Assembly (NCBI RefSeq): GCF_003605405.2
Contig: NZ_QYTW02000024.1
Span: 1-64,000 of the forward strand
From: Siminovitchia terrae
GTDB lineage: Bacteria > Bacillota > Bacilli > Bacillales > Bacillaceae_C
DNA length: 64,000 nucleotides
Direction: 5' to 3'
Shown one piece after another: positions 26,148 to 35,168 of this stretch. How positions within the stretch are numbered: position 1 is the stretch's first letter; every line of letters begins with the position of its first letter. Made by a program: the position numbers and the translations under genes. Below the pieces are notes generated by a model that saw only the letters and a program-made list of their open reading frames with translations, searched no databases and was not told the DNA's origin.

Positions 26148-26232
26148 ATAGGGAAAAATTAGGATGACGTTTCCTCTTTTTTCAAGTATAATCCTGAATC
26201 ATAAGGTATTCAGATATGGAGAGTGCATCGAC

Positions 26233-27147
26233 GTGAAAACGATAACAGTAAAAGACTTGATCAATAGATTTTCGTTGGAGGTTTTGGCAGGGGAGGAGCA
26301 CCTGGACCGAAAAATTACAACGAACCGAGCACACCGACCGGGCCTGGAGTTTGTCGGGTATTTCGACTTCTTCCCTACCGAGCTCGTTCAGGTACTTGGG
26401 GTAAAAGAGCTGACCTTTTTAAAAAGGTTAAGTGATGAGGAACAGAAGCTGAGGATAGGGAACATCGTGAATTATCATCCCCCGTGCTTCATCATCACGG
26501 CACAGCAGGAACCCTTACGTTATTTGATGGAATACTGCATCCAGGAAGGAATTCCTTTGCTCCGTACGGATGATGATCCAACATCAGAATTTATCAGGAA
26601 GATGGATGCTTATTTGTTGAAGACGTTGGCTCCGGAAATGGCTATCCATGGTGTTTGTGTGAATGTTTCAGGTATAGGGGTCCTGCTGCGTGGAAAATCA
26701 GGCATCGGAAAAAGCGAGACTGCCCATACCTTAATCCGCAGGGGGCATCGCCTTGTAGCGGATGACATTGTTACGTTGAAAAAGCTCGGTCCTCAGACGC
26801 TCCTCGGAACGCACGACAATAGTACAAGGGAACTGCTCGCATTAAGAAGTATCGGTCTGGTCAACGTAGTCCGACTGTACGGGAGAGAAGCGTTCCAGGA
26901 CCAGTCCAGAATCGTATTGGATATTGAATTGACGAAATGGGAAGAGGACTCTCTAAACAATGAATTGGAGCTTGAACCCCAGTTCACAGATTATATGGGG
27001 GTCAAAATTCCTCATATTGAGATTCAGCTCCAGCCAGGACGTGATGTGGCAGGTCTCATAGAAGCAGCCGCCAATAACTGGTATCTTCAACGGGAAGGCT
27101 ATAGTGCGGCAGAGGAATTTTCAAAGCGGTTGGGAATTGATCATTAA
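26233..27147 (+). CDS. HPr kinase/phosphorylase paralogue
   Basis: 304 residues from GTG 26233 (GGAGAG upstream); the longer frame from 26164 is rejected. The N-terminal domain (1-128) is followed by the P-loop kinase domain: MAIHG with the catalytic-region His139, GKSGIGKS (154-161) and RGHRLVADDIV. HprK phosphorylates HPr on Ser46 and thereby controls CcpA. Here the second signature reads ALRSIGLVNVVRLYG where canonical HprK has RGxGIxNVxxLFG, and the lgt/ppaX neighbours of the usual hprK are absent. I read it as a second, diverged HprK; whether it acts on HPr, Crh or another protein is open. Confidence 0.8.
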   Translation: MKTITVKDLINRFSLEVLAGEEHLDRKITTNRAHRPGLEFVGYFDFFPTELVQVLGVKELTFLKRLSDEEQKLRIGNIVNYHPPCFIITAQQEPLRYLMEYCIQEGIPLLRTDDDPTSEFIRKMDAYLLKTLAPEMAIHGVCVNVSGIGVLLRGKSGIGKSETAHTLIRRGHRLVADDIVTLKKLGPQTLLGTHDNSTRELLALRSIGLVNVVRLYGREAFQDQSRIVLDIELTKWEEDSLNNELELEPQFTDYMGVKIPHIEIQLQPGRDVAGLIEAAANNWYLQREGYSAAEEFSKRLGIDH

Positions 27148-28973: not shown

Positions 28974-29458
28974 GGTTCATACACCTCAATCTCTGTAGAC
29001 ATATAATGGTGGCCGGATCCGCAATATTCGTTGCAGAGAACTAAGTATTTTCCAGGTTTATCGAAAATATAGCTTTTATGGGTAATTCTTCCCGGGACGG
29101 CCATCATATTCACTTTTGTGTTGTCAATGGTAAAGCTGTGCACAACATCTGTACTCGTTAAGGTAAAAATGATTTCCTTTCCTACAGGAACTTTTATATC
29201 TGGAGGATCGTAGCCGAACGCTTGGGCAACCACTACGACTTCGTATCTGTCTTCATCAATCTGTCTTACACCAGGTTTGTCAAAAGGAGCTTGTTCAGAG
29301 ACTTTCTCCGGGTCAATCGTGTCCATACCACCTGCAGGCAGGCATAGAACGGATTCATTTCCGTGCGCAAAGGCGGTGAATCCGACGATGCTCAAAAACA
29401 CGGCCAGCGATAAAATACCGAAAATCAACCAAATTTTCTCGTACTTATGAAAATGCAT
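28970..29458 (-). CDS. cbaB: ba3-type cytochrome c oxidase subunit II (CuA)
   Basis: 162 residues: one N-terminal membrane helix (9-31) and an outside cupredoxin domain. CuA ligands are visible in VHSFTID and CNEYCGSGHHYM (Cys, Glu, Cys, His, Met). It takes electrons from cytochrome c. A cysteine-bearing loop after the helix (SVLCLPAGG) is unusual. It is the second gene of the cbaD-B-A operon and overlaps subunit I by 4 nt. Confidence 0.92.
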   Translation of the reverse strand: MHFHKYEKIWLIFGILSLAVFLSIVGFTAFAHGNESVLCLPAGGMDTIDPEKVSEQAPFDKPGVRQIDEDRYEVVVVAQAFGYDPPDIKVPVGKEIIFTLTSTDVVHSFTIDNTKVNMMAVPGRITHKSYIFDKPGKYLVLCNEYCGSGHHYMSTEIEVYEP

Positions 29459-29480
29459 AAATACTCACCTTCTTCTCTTT

Positions 29481-29603
29481 TTATCTGGCAACATAAAGGA
29501 AATATGTCGCAAACCACATAACGATAATTATGATTCCAACGCCAAAAACACCAACAAGCGTTCCTTTCAGATTGGGCTCCTCACCATGTTTGTTTTTAGC
29601 CAT
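29481..29603 (-). CDS. cbaD: Cytochrome c oxidase subunit IIa-like protein
   Basis: 40 residues: charged start (AKNKHGEEPNLKG), then one membrane helix (TLVGVFGVGIIIIVMWFATYFLYVA). Length, single helix and position ahead of subunit II match the CoxIIa/CbaD small subunit of ba3 oxidases. ATG 29603 has GGAGGGTG upstream. It is the first gene of the operon. Confidence 0.85.
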   Translation of the reverse strand: MAKNKHGEEPNLKGTLVGVFGVGIIIIVMWFATYFLYVAR

Positions 29604-29665
29604 ATTGACACCCTCCAATGTGCTCATTATTTACTTAAATCGTACTCCTGCTGATATTTTGTCAC

Positions 29666-29681
29666 TGTGATAAAAGTCACA
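29666..29681 (-). promoter_or_regulatory. Fnr box of the oxidase operon
   Basis: TGTGA-N6-TCACA is a perfect dyad and a match to the Bacillus Fnr site. On the minus strand TACGAT (29644-29639) could be the -10 box. The predicted start would then put the dyad centre about 41 bp upstream, the position used for Fnr activation. Confidence 0.75.
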
Positions 29682-29826
29682 CTTGACCTCAACTTCACAT
29701 TAACTTCATAAGTACTTCAAAATTTAGACAAAAAGTAAAACCAGAGTACTGGAGAGCCGAATTTGTTTGGTGCTGTGAAATAGCCGATGAAAAAAAGGAT
29801 CTATTTTCCAAATAAGTTTGTTTCAC

Positions 29827-29858
29827 ATAAAAAAGGCCGCGACATGCGTCGTGGCCTT
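29827..29858 (-). terminator. Terminator of fnr
   Basis: AAGGCCACGAC / GTCGCGGCCTT (one G-T pair) with a 4-nt loop, then T6 on the minus strand. Confidence 0.85.
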
Positions 29859-29983
29859 GATTTTAGGGCAATTCATATTATGTGAAAAACAAAATATTGT
29901 AAGATATTCAAGCCGATTGCGGGAACGTCCAGATTCGCGCGGAATCCTCTGTATTCATGCAAATTACTTTTTCAAGCAGTTCG

Positions 29984-30670
29984 CTAATCCATCCTGCAAA
30001 TGTCCACAGGGCAGTTCTCACAATGAATTTCGTCCTTTAGGTATTGAAGGTTGTGGACAAAAATCTTTCCGTTATCCATTTTAATGATTCCATCATTCTT
30101 TAAGCTGTTTAACAAACGATTGACAACCTCGCGGCTCATCCCGCAAAAGTTGGCCAATTCTTGGTTTGTAAGCGGAAGATCAATCAGGATACCATCATTT
30201 TTTTCGATCCCGTAGCTGTTAGTCATACGGATCAGAGTTGAATAAAGAGCTCCTTTTTTCCCATGCAAAACCAGGTCCCGGAATTTGGACTGGGTTTGCT
30301 GCTGTTGAGTGCCCATCATTTTTAAAAAACCAACGGTAAGGCTCGTGTCAAGAAGAAGCTTCTCCTCCAAATCCTGCTTTCCAATTTTTACGAGGGAGCA
30401 GTCTTCAATTACTTTCGCTTGGACTCTATAGGTGGAAAGCTTGCAAAACAGACGGATTTCGCTTATATAATCTCCTTCACTGCAAATACGAAAGGTGATT
30501 TCCCGCCCGTCTGGAGTAATTTTTCCAATTCGGACTCTTCCGGAACGGATATAGAAAATACTATCGGCAAGATCACCTTCGCGGAACAAAAAGCTGCCTT
30601 TTTTAACCACTTTTTCTTTATGTTCAATCAAAAGGAGATCTTTCAGATCTTCTGAATAATCGCCGTTCAT
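29984..30670 (-). CDS. fnr: Fnr anaerobic regulator, Bacillus type
   Basis: 228 residues. An N-terminal cyclic-nucleotide-fold sensor domain (15-125), a dimerisation helix and a winged-helix HTH (LTNQELANFCGMSREVVNRLLNSL). The C-terminus has C217-x2-C220-x4-C225, the [4Fe-4S] ligands characteristic of Bacillus Fnr, where E. coli Fnr has them at the N-terminus. It binds DNA when oxygen is absent. GGAGG is upstream of the ATG. The neighbouring oxidase operon carries an Fnr dyad, so it is a likely target. Confidence 0.92.
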   Translation of the reverse strand: MNGDYSEDLKDLLLIEHKEKVVKKGSFLFREGDLADSIFYIRSGRVRIGKITPDGREITFRICSEGDYISEIRLFCKLSTYRVQAKVIEDCSLVKIGKQDLEEKLLLDTSLTVGFLKMMGTQQQQTQSKFRDLVLHGKKGALYSTLIRMTNSYGIEKNDGILIDLPLTNQELANFCGMSREVVNRLLNSLKNDGIIKMDNGKIFVHNLQYLKDEIHCENCPVDICRMD

Positions 30671-31125
30671 GGAGGTCCTCCTTCCATTATTTAAAAAATG
30701 CGTTTCAATTGTATGTTAATTATAACATGTAGGCGGAAGAATCCATATTGAATCTGTACTTTAGACATACCAATAATGATAAAACGTCTAGGTTGGCGGT
30801 GAAGGGGATGAAGTGAAGCCAGCAGTATACGTTGTATTAGAGTTATCTTGATTCGGTATAAAGGTAGGGATATTTCAATCGACTCAATGTTTTGTGATGA
30901 TGTTCACAAGGAAGGCTTTACCGGCTATAGGTCAGATTCGCTTGATTCTGGGGCTTGGTGCTGCTCGGAAATAAGATAAATTGAATATAAAATAAGAGAA
31001 TTTCAATGCTGGGGGGCAGGTAGGGGAGTTATTGGCCAAAAAACGCCATACTCCTTTGCTAGTGACTGTATTTTCTGAAGGTTATTAATGAGAAAAAGGA
31101 TCTAAATAGCTTCATATTAGGATTT
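30671..31125. other. Upstream region of fnr, no gene
   Basis: Contains the palindrome ATGTTA-ATTA-TAACAT near 30713, whose minus strand holds TATAAT, a likely fnr promoter -10. The remaining 350 bp contain nothing recognised. Confidence 0.45.
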
Positions 31126-31317
31126 AACTTCATTCAGTAGAAGTCTCCCACTTCTGTAAGTGGTGAGATGAAAGCATATTGGTATTCCATTCAGTGGGGG
31201 GTCAAACCTCGGTTGAATAAAGTTAAAGCCTTCGGTGGATGCCACAGATTTTCAGAGGAAATTTATCGAGCGGAGCTCGATAAAATCTGGTCGCAAATAC
31301 GCCAAGGCGCATTTGAT
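31126..31317 (+). repeat. Four-hairpin repeat, copy 5
   Basis: Full copy after GATTT, starting AACTTC and ending CATTTGAT. It has point changes in H2 (CCTCGGTTGAAT) and GGTCGCAAAT before H4. It stands alone in a gene-poor stretch between fnr and the ParM-like operon. Confidence 0.9.
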
Positions 31318-31800
31318 AGTGGGGGTGTAAATATCATGTGAATGAATTTCAACTGAATCAGTTGAGAAAAGTTTACTGCCCGTATAATAATCCCTAAAGA
31401 GCTCTGACCCTGAAAAATTCAGGGGATTAGTTACGATATTATTATTGTGCTGGAATGATGCCTAAGGAGAGAGTTTGCCTTTATTAATGAGGAAGGAAAG
31501 GATTTTTAACGATAAAATATTACTCTATGATTATCCGGAATTTTTTGTTTGTTTTAAAAAATAAAACTCGACAAATTCCTACTATTTTCGTCAGGATTTA
31601 CTCCCTCTTTTTTAGGCTAATTTCACGAGTCTTACTATGAGCTGGGGCCAATTTTCATCAATGGTTTAATTTAAAATCTAAATGTTTATTTTACTGCTTG
31701 TATTTTCCAAAGGGGCATGAATATTAATTTAGCTCATCTGATGTTTTGGATTGTTTAACTGGCGAAATTCTCTTGAAATAATGTCGAAAACAGAAGAAAA
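31318..31800. other. Gene-poor stretch before the ParM-like operon
   Basis: No supportable gene. A small hairpin CCCTGAAAAATTCAGGG is at about 31408-31424. The base composition is very A+T-rich towards the actin operon. Confidence 0.45.
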
Positions 31801-31807
31801 CAATTTT

Positions 31808-31941
31808 GTGTACATGTAAACAAATAAAGGTATGTTGTTTACTTATTATGTATACATGTGTACAAAACGGTAAACATATTGATTTGACGACATGTTTACG
31901 GATTAAGTAAACAAGTACACAAGTAAACGATAAATGTATAC
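31808..31941. repeat. GTTTAC/GTAAAC site array (centromere-like)
   Basis: Six copies of GTAAAC or its complement GTTTAC at 31816, 31837, 31870, 31894, 31907 and 31923, joined by GTATAC at 31850 and 31936 and GTACA/GTACAC at 31809, 31860 and 31915. The array is about 130 bp, in mixed orientation, and 115 bp upstream of the ParM-like gene. This is the place where type II plasmid partition systems carry parC, which both anchors the adaptor and represses the operon. Confidence 0.7.
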
Positions 31942-32056
31942 GAAATGTCGATAGTGAAAGCATTATTGACCGCAATAAGAAATTCAGGTAATCTTTAATC
32001 ATACTTATAGAAATTTCCAATTGGTAGTTTCGCAAAAGAAAGGATGATAGTTATAT

Positions 32057-33232
32057 ATGGAAAAAACAAGACTTGCAGCGATTGATGTTGGAAATGATTC
32101 CTTAAAAGGTATCTTTGGTGAAATGGAGCATGAAATTAATATCCCCAATATCATTGCAAGAGATGTAGAAGACCGTCCGGTTATTGGATTGGAAGAGTTG
32201 GATAATCAAGAACCAATAGATGGATTACATATACGTTTACACTCTCCTTCATTACAAGAAAATGGCGCCGTTTACCGAGTTGGCCATTTGGCGACACGAA
32301 GCGGGAATGCCACAGAGTTAGATCCAGGAAGCAGCAAATCGGAAGAAGATCAGACATTGGTTATGCTGTTTGCAGCGCTGGCTCTTGACGCGGTACGTGA
32401 AGAGAACAAGAAGGTGTTCAAACGCAGTAACAATGTTGTCGAAGCTACCTACAGTTTAGGCACAGGGCTTCCTTTGAGAGAAGTGAAGGAAGGAAAAGAT
32501 GTGGGTTACCGCTCTAAATTGCTAGGTTCTGTACACCAGATAGAGTTTTTGGTCACTCCAAAATACCAGGGAATCAAAGTCAATATTAAATTCGAAGAAG
32601 TAAAGATTTATCCTGAAGGTTTTGCCGCTTTCATCAATCTAGTCATGGATAATGATTTGAAGATCATCAACAAAGACTTGATTGACAAAAGAATCATCAT
32701 TCAAGATATTGGCGGATTATCAACAGATATCGCCGTCATTAAAAATAGGAAAGTGGATGATGACCGTGCGCAGGGCTTCAACCTTGGTGTATCTGAATCC
32801 CTTGATGCGATTCGAGAGGAGATCCGTTCAAAATATGGTGTTGAGCTCGACAGCCGGCGGGATGTTGTAGAGGTCATCACGAAAAAGAATGATAGAAACC
32901 ACATTATGGTCAAAGGTAGCCGGACAAGCGTCCATGAGATTGTTGACCGCATTCTCTTGGAACTGGCAAAAAAGCAATACCGCCACTTAAGAAATGTTTG
33001 GCAAAGAAACTCCCAAACAGAGATTGCCTACTTTATCGGCGGAGGATCCATCGTTTTGAAAGATTATTTGAAGGCATTAAACAATAATCTGGATGGATAC
33101 AATATCGACTTTTTTGAAGATGAAAAAGAAAGTGTCTGGATGATGGCAAATGCATACTATAAGCTGATCGCCGACTTTGCTAAAAAGAATCAAAAAGAGA
33201 TAAAAGAAGAGAAAAAAGCGGTTAAAAATTAA
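32057..33232 (+). CDS. ParM/StbA-type actin-like ATPase
   Basis: 391 residues with the actin-fold nucleotide motifs: phosphate 1 AIDVGNDSLKG (8-18), phosphate 2 QDIGGLSTDIAV (around 222) and adenosine motif YFIGGGSIVL (around 333). ParM-type proteins polymerise with ATP and push plasmid copies apart through an adaptor bound to a centromere. Sequence flavour is that of Bacillus plasmid actins (Alp-type), not MreB. AAAGGATG precedes the ATG. The next gene follows by 12 nt and has adaptor-like features. No plasmid replication gene is nearby, so the operon appears chromosomal or stably integrated. Confidence 0.85.
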   Translation: MEKTRLAAIDVGNDSLKGIFGEMEHEINIPNIIARDVEDRPVIGLEELDNQEPIDGLHIRLHSPSLQENGAVYRVGHLATRSGNATELDPGSSKSEEDQTLVMLFAALALDAVREENKKVFKRSNNVVEATYSLGTGLPLREVKEGKDVGYRSKLLGSVHQIEFLVTPKYQGIKVNIKFEEVKIYPEGFAAFINLVMDNDLKIINKDLIDKRIIIQDIGGLSTDIAVIKNRKVDDDRAQGFNLGVSESLDAIREEIRSKYGVELDSRRDVVEVITKKNDRNHIMVKGSRTSVHEIVDRILLELAKKQYRHLRNVWQRNSQTEIAYFIGGGSIVLKDYLKALNNNLDGYNIDFFEDEKESVWMMANAYYKLIADFAKKNQKEIKEEKKAVKN

Positions 33233-33244
33233 TAGGGTGATACC

Positions 33245-33820
33245 ATGAAGGAAACGGGGATGAAGAGGGGGCAACCAATCACATTCAGGATCCCTTCCGA
33301 TGCGCCTGACCATATTTTGAAGCAACTGCAAAGATTAAAAGAGACAGAGCGGAGAAATTTCTCGAGCAAAATTGCTTCCATCGTAATGAGTGGAGTCAGC
33401 GAAACTTTGACAAAGCAAAGGGAGACTCTCACGATTCCACTGCCAAGAGGGCTAACCAAAGATCAGCGCGACTGGCTAAAGCATGAGCATTCGGAAGCGT
33501 TGCTCGGAAACATCGTTTACCAATTATTATCCGATCCTGTTAGAGCTGTATCCATCCTGGCATCACTCAACAGCAATGCGCTGGAAATCGACGATGCTCT
33601 GTACTTGCAGGAGGAAGCGGCAACGATAGAAGAACATGGTGGAACGGAATATCCTGAGGAAGATCAGTTTACAGTTAGTAGCAGCCACCCATCTGATGTA
33701 GACGATTTAGATGATCTTGATTGGGGTCAAATCAAAATGGATGAAGAAACACAGGATGCGGAGAAAGCCGAGTTAGAAGATGATCCATTGGCGGATTTTC
33801 TGGCACAGATGAATAAATGA
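33245..33820 (+). CDS. Probable DNA-binding adaptor of the ParM-like operon
   Basis: 191 residues. The N-terminal 60 (RGQPITFRIPSDAPDHILKQL, then RRNFSSKIASIVMSG) fit a ribbon-helix-helix or winged DNA-binding start. The middle is helical, and the last 70 residues are very acidic (DVDDLDDLDWGQIKMDEE) and end in DPLADFLAQM. ParR-type adaptors pair an N-terminal DNA-binding domain with a short C-terminal filament-binding tail, which matches this layout. I recognise no family signature, so the role rests on position, layout and the upstream site array. Confidence 0.65.
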   Translation: MKETGMKRGQPITFRIPSDAPDHILKQLQRLKETERRNFSSKIASIVMSGVSETLTKQRETLTIPLPRGLTKDQRDWLKHEHSEALLGNIVYQLLSDPVRAVSILASLNSNALEIDDALYLQEEAATIEEHGGTEYPEEDQFTVSSSHPSDVDDLDDLDWGQIKMDEETQDAEKAELEDDPLADFLAQMNK

Positions 33821-33846
33821 GAGGACATGAAGAGTATCCTTTTGTC

Positions 33847-33876
33847 AGGCTGTCGAACATTTCGACAGCCTTCTTT
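33847..33876 (+). terminator. Terminator of the ParM-like operon
   Basis: AGGCTGTCGAA/TTCGACAGCCT perfect stem with a CAT loop and TCTTT. Confidence 0.85.
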
Positions 33877-33988
33877 ATATTTATAGTTCCTTCATTACTC
33901 GTACGGAAAAATAGAAGGAACGTTCCTCTTTTTTGTTCATTAAAAAAAATTAAACATATTATTAAAATACTTCAAATGTACTTAACAT

Positions 33989-34033
33989 GTTTAGCTGGTT
34001 ATAATTTTTTTATAAATAATAAGTTAGCTAAAC
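33989..34033 (+). promoter_or_regulatory. Promoter and dyad before the C45 hydrolase operon
   Basis: GTTTAGCT (33989-33996) and AGCTAAAC (34026-34033) are exact reverse complements flanking a TATAAT (34000-34005). The matching -35 position (TGTACT) is poor, which suggests an activator. The LysR gene at the other end of the locus is a candidate. Confidence 0.45.
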
Positions 34034-34046
34034 ACAGGAGGTTTTC

Positions 34047-35168
34047 ATGAACAACAAAGAAGCGGTAATCAATAAAAGGTCCAACCAAAGGTTTCCTTTT
34101 TATAGATTTAAGGGAACCCACCATGAAATTGGCTTACAGCATGGTGAAGCATGCAGGGGCTTAATTGAGCGCCATCTAAATCTGGCAGTTGAAAGACTGC
34201 AAAGGCAGCATGATATAGCTTTGCCAGAAATATTGGAGGAGACACTGAAATATAGAAAATACGTAAAGGAACACTCTCCATTTTTAGATGATGAGATTGT
34301 CGGGATTGCTAAAGGAGCAAATATTTCCATTGAAGAAGCCTATTTACTCCAGGTACGAGCAGAAATCAATCGCTGTTTCAAGACAGAGAATGAGTGTACA
34401 ACTTTTGCAGTGGCCCCTGAGTCTACAAAAGAAGGTACTATCATTATTGGTCAAAATGCTGATCTTCCGGAATTTTACTCTTCTATATCCATTATTAAGG
34501 AAGTAGAGCCGGAAGATGGAAAAGCCACATTAATGTTGACTCCTGCGGGCCAAGTATCATACATAGGCATTAATAATGCCGGGATGGGTGTTTTTGCGAA
34601 CTTTCTAGAATGTGAGGGATGGAGGGAAGGCTATCCACGCTACATGTTCTCCAGGTTTGCATTGACACATGATTCCATAGAAGAAGCAGTAAAGGGCCTT
34701 CGAAGTCTTACTCGTGCCTCGTCACGCAATTTAATCATGTCCGATAAAAATGGAGTAATAGCAAATATGGAAACAACGGTTACGGATGATGCTCTATTAA
34801 AGCCAAAGGACGGGATCCTAGCACATGCCAATCATTATCTCTCTAATGAATTAGCGAACGAGGAACGGTCTAAAGGTTATCTTTTGAATAACTCTAAAAT
34901 ACGGCAACAGCGAATGGAGCAATTATTGCTAGAAAAAAAGGGCGAAATAACTGTGGAAATATTGAAGGAGATCATGCGGGACAGGGAGAACTATCCGAAC
35001 TGTTTATGCCAAGCTCCCGGAGATGAGAGTATGCAGGCACCTGGAGACAGCGGAGGGGATATTGTTACATTTGCATCAGTGATTGCTGAACCTGAGGCGG
35101 GAAGAATGTGGGTTGCAATGGGGCCGCCAAATGAACATGAGTACCATCCTTATTCCTTTACACGTTGA
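34047..35168 (+). CDS. C45 family Ntn hydrolase (acyltransferase-like)
   Basis: 373 residues of the C45 group related to isopenicillin-N acyltransferase. The HGEACRGLI region (32-40) and the self-processing site before Cys117 (ENE-CTTF) are seen; cleavage there would free Cys117 as nucleophile. Further on are GQNADLPE and INNAGMGVFAN. Bacterial members cut amide bonds of acylated amino acids or lactams; the substrate is not known. It has no signal peptide and is cytosolic. AGGAGG is 5 nt before the ATG. It heads an operon with a peptide-type ABC importer, which suggests that it hydrolyses what the importer brings in. Confidence 0.82.
   Translation: MNNKEAVINKRSNQRFPFYRFKGTHHEIGLQHGEACRGLIERHLNLAVERLQRQHDIALPEILEETLKYRKYVKEHSPFLDDEIVGIAKGANISIEEAYLLQVRAEINRCFKTENECTTFAVAPESTKEGTIIIGQNADLPEFYSSISIIKEVEPEDGKATLMLTPAGQVSYIGINNAGMGVFANFLECEGWREGYPRYMFSRFALTHDSIEEAVKGLRSLTRASSRNLIMSDKNGVIANMETTVTDDALLKPKDGILAHANHYLSNELANEERSKGYLLNNSKIRQQRMEQLLLEKKGEITVEILKEIMRDRENYPNCLCQAPGDESMQAPGDSGGDIVTFASVIAEPEAGRMWVAMGPPNEHEYHPYSFTR

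Follow-up and report, generated by a model that had tools for sequence, protein, structure and literature searches.

A chromosomal ParMRC-like operon with a helically phased hexamer array near the replication origin in Bacillales: a possible second centromere

The operon and its gene products

Our window, meaning the whole 64-kb stretch of Siminovitchia terrae DNA that was analysed, carries a compact succession of features: a 134-bp array of hexamers resembling parC (31808–31941, no strand assigned), a 391-codon gene for an actin-like ATPase (32057–33232, forward strand), a gap of 12 bases, a 191-codon gene for a candidate adaptor (33245–33820, forward strand) and a terminator-like hairpin closing the operon (33847–33871, forward strand). 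The hairpin, identified by consensus match only, has an 11-pair stem and then a T-rich tail; the region holds one such structure, against a mean of 1.6 in shuffled sequence. Both open reading frames lie where the original prediction had placed them. The full type II (ParMRC) layout that it proposed was borne out as well, with an actin-like ATPase whose motifs are intact, an adjacent small gene and a repeat array. Its claim that no replication gene is present holds for the 18 other window ORFs searched, which makes this a partial check. Upstream, about 1.1 kb without a long ORF (30671–31807) separates a gene for a Crp/Fnr-type regulator from the array. This interval holds no Rfam family above threshold, and 30680–31800 has no plasmid match. 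An Rfam search of 29400–34100 gave two sub-threshold microRNA matches, one of them on the array, which were treated as chance.

The ATPase was assigned to the ParM type by Pfam and PHROG matches. It contains Alp7A_like_C (E 3.8e-33; 114.9 bits, cut-off 22) and ALP_N (E 6.5e-11; 43.1 bits, cut-off 26.3), and matches PHROG 691, 'partition protein' (4.4e-43). Its DVGN, DIGGLSTD and GGG stretches, which we take to be the nucleotide-site motifs, are invariant in an alignment of 15 relatives. Solved ParMs match weakly (7x54 with E 0.016 by sequence and 0.0012 by profile; 7x3h with 0.002), and the AlphaFold model is poor (mean pLDDT 51.8). Alp7A, after which the best-matching Pfam family is named, belongs with Alp7R to the plasmid-borne system of pLS20 in Bacillus subtilis. 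The likeness of our ATPase to Alp7A lies at the level of that Pfam match.

In each of 81 loci (the window and 80 relatives), the small gene follows parM immediately and with the same orientation. Its 191-residue product was defined by ORF position and by alignment of relatives. It has no family match in Pfam, NCBIfam or PHROGs, and its 56 relatives have no consistent Pfam match. The protein is built of some 120 conserved N-terminal residues, among which helix pairs are predicted, then a variable acidic linker and a conserved tail. This C-terminal F-L-x-x-M-N-x motif follows the acidic stretch in each of the 56 aligned relatives, in agreement with the acidic-tailed adaptor originally proposed. 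Helix pairs are predicted at residues 22–34 and 39–49, and the single-chain AlphaFold model (weak, pTM 0.31) shows no strand; this model gave no Foldseek match and the sequence no match among PDB sequences. We infer that the protein may have a DNA-binding fold and would play the role of ParR. The idea that it contains two ribbon-helix-helix repeats was dropped, as a profile comparison of one half with the other gave a probability of 0.24 on HH-suite's scale of 100.

A phased array upstream of parM

The array consists of six GTAAAC/GTTTAC sites (31816, 31837, 31870, 31894, 31907 and 31923), as the original prediction stated, together with five related sites: GTATAC at 31850 and 31936, and GTGTAC/GTACAC at 31808, 31858 and 31915. 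These 11 sites are among 64 such hexamers in the window; a stretch as long as the array would be expected to hold 0.11, and no other stretch of the same length contains more than two. In dinucleotide shuffles of the 450 bp 5' of parM, the mean was 0.64 sites and the maximum 4. Chance was therefore rejected as the source of the array.

A scan of named genomes returned 432 relatives, of which the best 80 were kept; with the window they make up the 81 loci compared here. They come from Siminovitchia, Heyndrickxia, Cytobacillus, Rossellomorea, Neobacillus, Sporosarcina, Ureibacillus and other genera. At least four sites lie in the 450 bp before parM in 80 of the 81 loci, with a mean of 10.3 per locus (range 3–16) against 0.89 in shuffles. 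The exception, L095, has three sites in that interval, yet clusters of 12 and 11 lie further upstream, at −559 and −3783. The array was thus not found to be missing where both genes are kept. Distances between sites peak at 8, 12, 20–21, 42 and 62 bp, equivalent to about every two helical turns.

Beyond the first 460 bp, ten clusters of at least four sites occur in 9 of the 80 loci, all upstream and within 4 kb; a second cluster in L099, for example, has nine sites at −1.7 kb. Three of the outlying clusters, at −559 to −565, are probably just shifted arrays. Shuffled sequence gave two clusters of at least four sites in 822 kb, so chance alone should yield a few four-site clusters over the 1.62 Mb of real sequence scanned. 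Among 40-kb stretches from 20 complete genomes, a cluster lies just 5' of parM in 19, with none in G016. Extra clusters occur at −1.9 kb (G010), −1.1 kb (G213) and +1.9 kb (G042, six sites), and the array of G209 is split.

A three-site pattern, which recovers 54 of the 81 known arrays and matches twice beyond their first 430 bp, was applied to 46 whole genomes, with the reversed pattern as control. It gave 104 matches in 40 of the 46 genomes, against six for the control. The 39 genomes in which parM was located account for 103 matches, all of them at most 1.5 kb upstream of that gene, and in the window's own genome (G000) the single match falls in the window array. Six genomes have no match even at their own locus, so further arrays with other spacing may lie elsewhere. 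In four genomes of genus g72 (G322, G361, G380 and G213), array matches lie about 1.0–1.1 kb 5' of parM in addition to a nearer array, which in G213 is visible only in the cluster scan. This arrangement suggests a split centromere in that genus.

Directly 5' of an operon is also the natural place for an operator. The array might accordingly be an autoregulatory operator only, with the filament serving another job (cytoskeletal, in cell shape, at the envelope or spore-related) and nothing being segregated. We regard this as unlikely: an operator would need fewer than the ten or so sites per locus, which are set roughly two helical turns apart, second clusters occur in several genomes (L095, L099 and G042), and the array is absent from the plasmid relatives compared below. 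In favour of the operator explanation, a 2025 paper on chromosomal ParM proteins likewise leaves their role open in its accessible text (PMC12270681).

Relatives on plasmids and phages

ParM matches were found in 98 plasmid records, all below 60% identity (44.5% at best among those listed), and in six phage records, at up to 25.6%. The plasmid ParM/StbA systems of Alicyclobacillus, Pseudalkalibacillus, B. methanolicus (pBM69), Niallia and Peribacillus share the two-gene order of our operon, and their ATPases are 41.7–44.5% identical to that of the window. Four of the five adaptors have a related N-terminus, and the fifth (L250) is remote. The plasmid relatives differ from the window operon in their adaptor tails, and the hexamer array is absent from all six examined, namely the five with both genes and L255 (38.0%), in which only ParM was seen. 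As far as compared, the DNA site is therefore specific to the chromosomal clade. We consider a plasmid ancestry with later fixation in the chromosome likely.

Related ParMs on plasmids of the same bacteria could also mean that the chromosomal system acts on plasmids, by helping incoming ones or by destabilising those with related centromeres. A remote ParM on another contig in three of 45 genomes (G010, G376 and G377), and on the main contig in G209, fits this idea. It is nevertheless very improbable in our estimation: the chromosome has an array of its own and the six plasmid relatives do not, so the plasmid and chromosomal sites look orthogonal.

On three plasmids of Bacillus licheniformis and B. 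subtilis (H24, H26 and H27), the annotation splits the ParM relative into two or four hypothetical proteins, and the gene looks broken or mis-assembled. The window's genome has a second, remote ParM-like gene (G000:C29:20510-24124; L002:1156-2631) of 359 aa that is 23% identical over the matched stretch. A small protein of 124 aa comes next, and the two may form a further partition pair, carried by a plasmid or phage. A similar match occurs in G004, a genome without the chromosomal clade.

Distribution and inheritance

In a first set of 60 genomes, the window's own included, 42 gave some match and 38 (by row count, again including the own genome) a full-length match at 75–100% identity. Wider sampling of the order, taken to be Bacillales from the scan of named genomes, placed the ParM clade in 201 of the 397 genomes examined and in 56 of their 136 genera. 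Carriers include Heyndrickxia coagulans and Bacillus methanolicus PB1; B. subtilis, to our knowledge, lacks the operon. A class-wide sample contained the clade in 24 of 398 genomes, eight of those outside the order. About half of the sampled order is without the operon, as is G004, which belongs to the window's own genus and has no close ParM match, and so it must be dispensable. The phyletic profile is uninformative on a link to sporulation, because Spo0A was found in 390 of the 397 genomes.

Presence follows genus boundaries. Among 43 genera with at least three genomes, the clade is in all members of 14, in none of 20 and in some of nine, which makes 34 uniform genera against an average of 4.5 (maximum 11) when labels are shuffled. 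Pairwise ParM distances track those of DnaA (r = 0.80 over 21 genomes; none of 2000 permutations as high), and mean identity over these genomes is 83.4% for ParM and 84.3% for DnaA. The gene thus descends with the chromosome, under a constraint close to that on DnaA. This is an old chromosomal operon, passed on vertically, and not a stray plasmid gene. The suggestion that it stabilises an integrated element consequently found no support.

In a related idea, the operon is what an integrated plasmid or phage has left behind, as a remnant or an addiction-like relic. In its favour, the families nearest to the operon's proteins are partition proteins of plasmids and phages. The idea appears extremely unlikely. 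Besides the clock and conservation shared with DnaA, the ParM frame has no internal stop in the rows shown. Apart from the adaptor, moreover, no gene family accompanies ParM in more than 20 of the 81 loci (neighbours were not annotated singly). The most frequent such family, in 20 loci, presumably encodes a common type of ABC ATPase. A block of genes about 2 to 9 kb 3' of parM in 12 of the 81 loci, for example L049 and L050 from Rossellomorea, encodes what we assume to be gas-vesicle proteins.

Place on the chromosome

Position was examined in 45 near-complete genomes from 24 genera: 42 clade-bearing genomes with at most four contigs, chosen by eye from the order set, together with G010 (seven contigs), G028 and G032 from the first set of 60. 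In all 45, ParM is on the contig that carries dnaA. The possibility that the window's contig is a plasmid, which would have undone the original prediction, was rejected on this ground, and the best listed plasmid relative is 44.5% identical. The operon differs in this from plasmid partition systems, which are carried on low-copy plasmids. ParM also lies on the same side of dnaA in 45 of 45, on the opposite strand and pointing away from it. The distance between them is 35–287 kb, with a median of 93 kb, or 2.0% of the contig, and a maximum of 8.2%. Two single-contig carriers among the eight from outside the order have the same side and strand pattern, at about −51 kb (G577) and −56 kb (G651).

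The immediate surroundings are far less constant. Within the 20 kb origin-side of ParM in 20 genomes, the largest shared gene family occurs in four, and the gene next to the operon in the window (34047–35168) is absent from all 45. Local DNA therefore appears to have been replaced while the operon stayed. The survey of synteny in relatives that the original prediction called for thus had a mixed outcome: array and adaptor are kept with ParM, and close neighbours are not. In 3 of 20 genomes a control gene, gltD, lies no more than 20 kb from ParM. Where found (28 of 45), it ranges from −48.7 to +49.6% of the contig, with 6 of the 28 copies within 290 kb to the left of dnaA, the zone of ParM. The main copy of hprK, a second control and an ordinary core gene, is present in 45 of 45, from −30.6 to +26.3%. 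It lies on the left arm in 40, at −320 to −1242 kb, and on the other arm in five. The window encodes an HPr kinase of a lower-scoring kind (26164–27147, 333 bits). A second copy of this kind (333–341 bits) occurs in G028, G032 and G134 in addition to the main hprK (381–390 bits), and G032 has a relative of the window's copy some 98 kb from dnaA.

The place near the origin can be read in more than one way. Large-scale gene order is conserved, as the 40 left-arm copies of hprK illustrate, and on that arm the spread of distances is a factor of about 4 for hprK and about 8 for ParM. ParM may therefore simply sit at its ancestral place, and conserved gene order alone could hold it near the origin. 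The operon would then have hitch-hiked, inherited vertically without ever moving and with a function unrelated to the origin. This seems quite improbable to us, given that neighbours on the origin side are hardly shared and that gltD moves freely. High gene dose is a general property of origin-proximal genes, and it could account for the place without a centromere if the array were an operator only. Proximity to the origin is, on its own, no proof of a centromere.

The window's genome is a draft, and the place of the operon in it was approached through 269 ORFs, some orthologues being counted repeatedly. They were taken from the window, from the greater part of the contig beyond it and from two sister contigs. 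Of these, 29 have a match in the origin-side zones of G009, G010 and G032, against two in an equal amount of mid-chromosome DNA (one arbitrary choice), so the region is probably origin-side. Pointing the other way, none of the 28 ORFs in the interval between parM and dnaA of G293 was found in the window or in the sister contigs of G001, G003 and G005, including 100 kb origin-side in G005. To be origin-side in the window's genus, the operon would need to lie more than 100 kb from dnaA.

A candidate second centromere

All 45 genomes have, no further than about 28 kb from dnaA, two ParB-family genes, which we take to be Spo0J and Noc, so the operon is additional to ParABS. That system (Soj/Spo0J-parS) likewise acts near the origin, but its motor is a Walker ATPase unrelated to the actin-like one, and its DNA-binding protein is unrelated too. 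On sequence evidence, we lean towards reading the locus as a chromosomal, vertically inherited segregation operon of type II (ParMRC-like), which would form a second, actin-based centromere near oriC beside ParABS. The operon may help to pull sister chromosomes apart, since it is near the origin in every near-complete genome checked.

Plasmid ParMRC provides the model for the clustering of adaptors on an array and their coupling to filament ends. By this analogy, several adaptor molecules would bind the helically phased hexamers beside the operon, and the conserved adaptor tail would couple the array to the ends of the actin-like filament. Growth or shrinkage of the filament might then act on the newly replicated origin regions of both sisters, given that array and operon are 35–290 kb from oriC. 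The sister origin regions would be the cargo, to be separated or positioned in addition to what ParB-parS does. The array is also placed where the adaptor could repress its own operon.

Chromosome-encoded ParMR pairs (cParMR) were described in 2025 from Desulfitobacterium, Clostridium botulinum and Bacillus tropicus (Ali et al., PMC12270681). According to the accessible text of that paper, two other chromosomal ParMs form filaments, one of the adaptors was seen to bind its DNA, several Bacillus chromosomes have a conserved Bt-cParM, and no ParCMR has been tied to chromosome segregation. Bt-cParM1 and -2 are WP_001968526.1 and WP_000025611.1. Our operon resembles cParMR, as far as the accessible description goes, in pairing a ParM-type gene with a ParR-like gene on the chromosome and in its conservation within genera. 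By these features (a ParM and a ParR-like gene on the chromosome, kept between species) it belongs with cParMR, with the ParR role assigned by inference. It differs, compared by description from the accessible text, in the spread of the clade over 56 of 136 genera, its place near the origin in 45 of 45 genomes and its conserved array. The terms 'dnaA', 'replication origin' and 'origin of replication' are absent from the accessible main text of PMC12270681, and 'oriC' occurs there in one reference title. No report of an origin link for a chromosomal ParMR was found in the literature searched, a scope outside which most subscription papers lie.

The original prediction, which offered segregation of a chromosomal region among its readings, was right in kind and too modest, for the operon is neither a lone oddity nor an integrated plasmid. 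The main point is the constant place beside the origin. We advance its broader form tentatively, at a little under even confidence: about half of the order's species would possess, besides ParABS, a second chromosomal centromere, in which an actin-like filament and a phased array beside oriC, inherited like DnaA, act on sister origins. With a conserved, origin-linked operon and one array locus, this role is directly testable in carrier species. If the proposal is true, a ParM-type machine would for the first time, as far as is known, have been shown to move a bacterial chromosome and not a plasmid, and pictures of Bacillus segregation drawn from B. subtilis would be missing a component that is present in many of its relatives.
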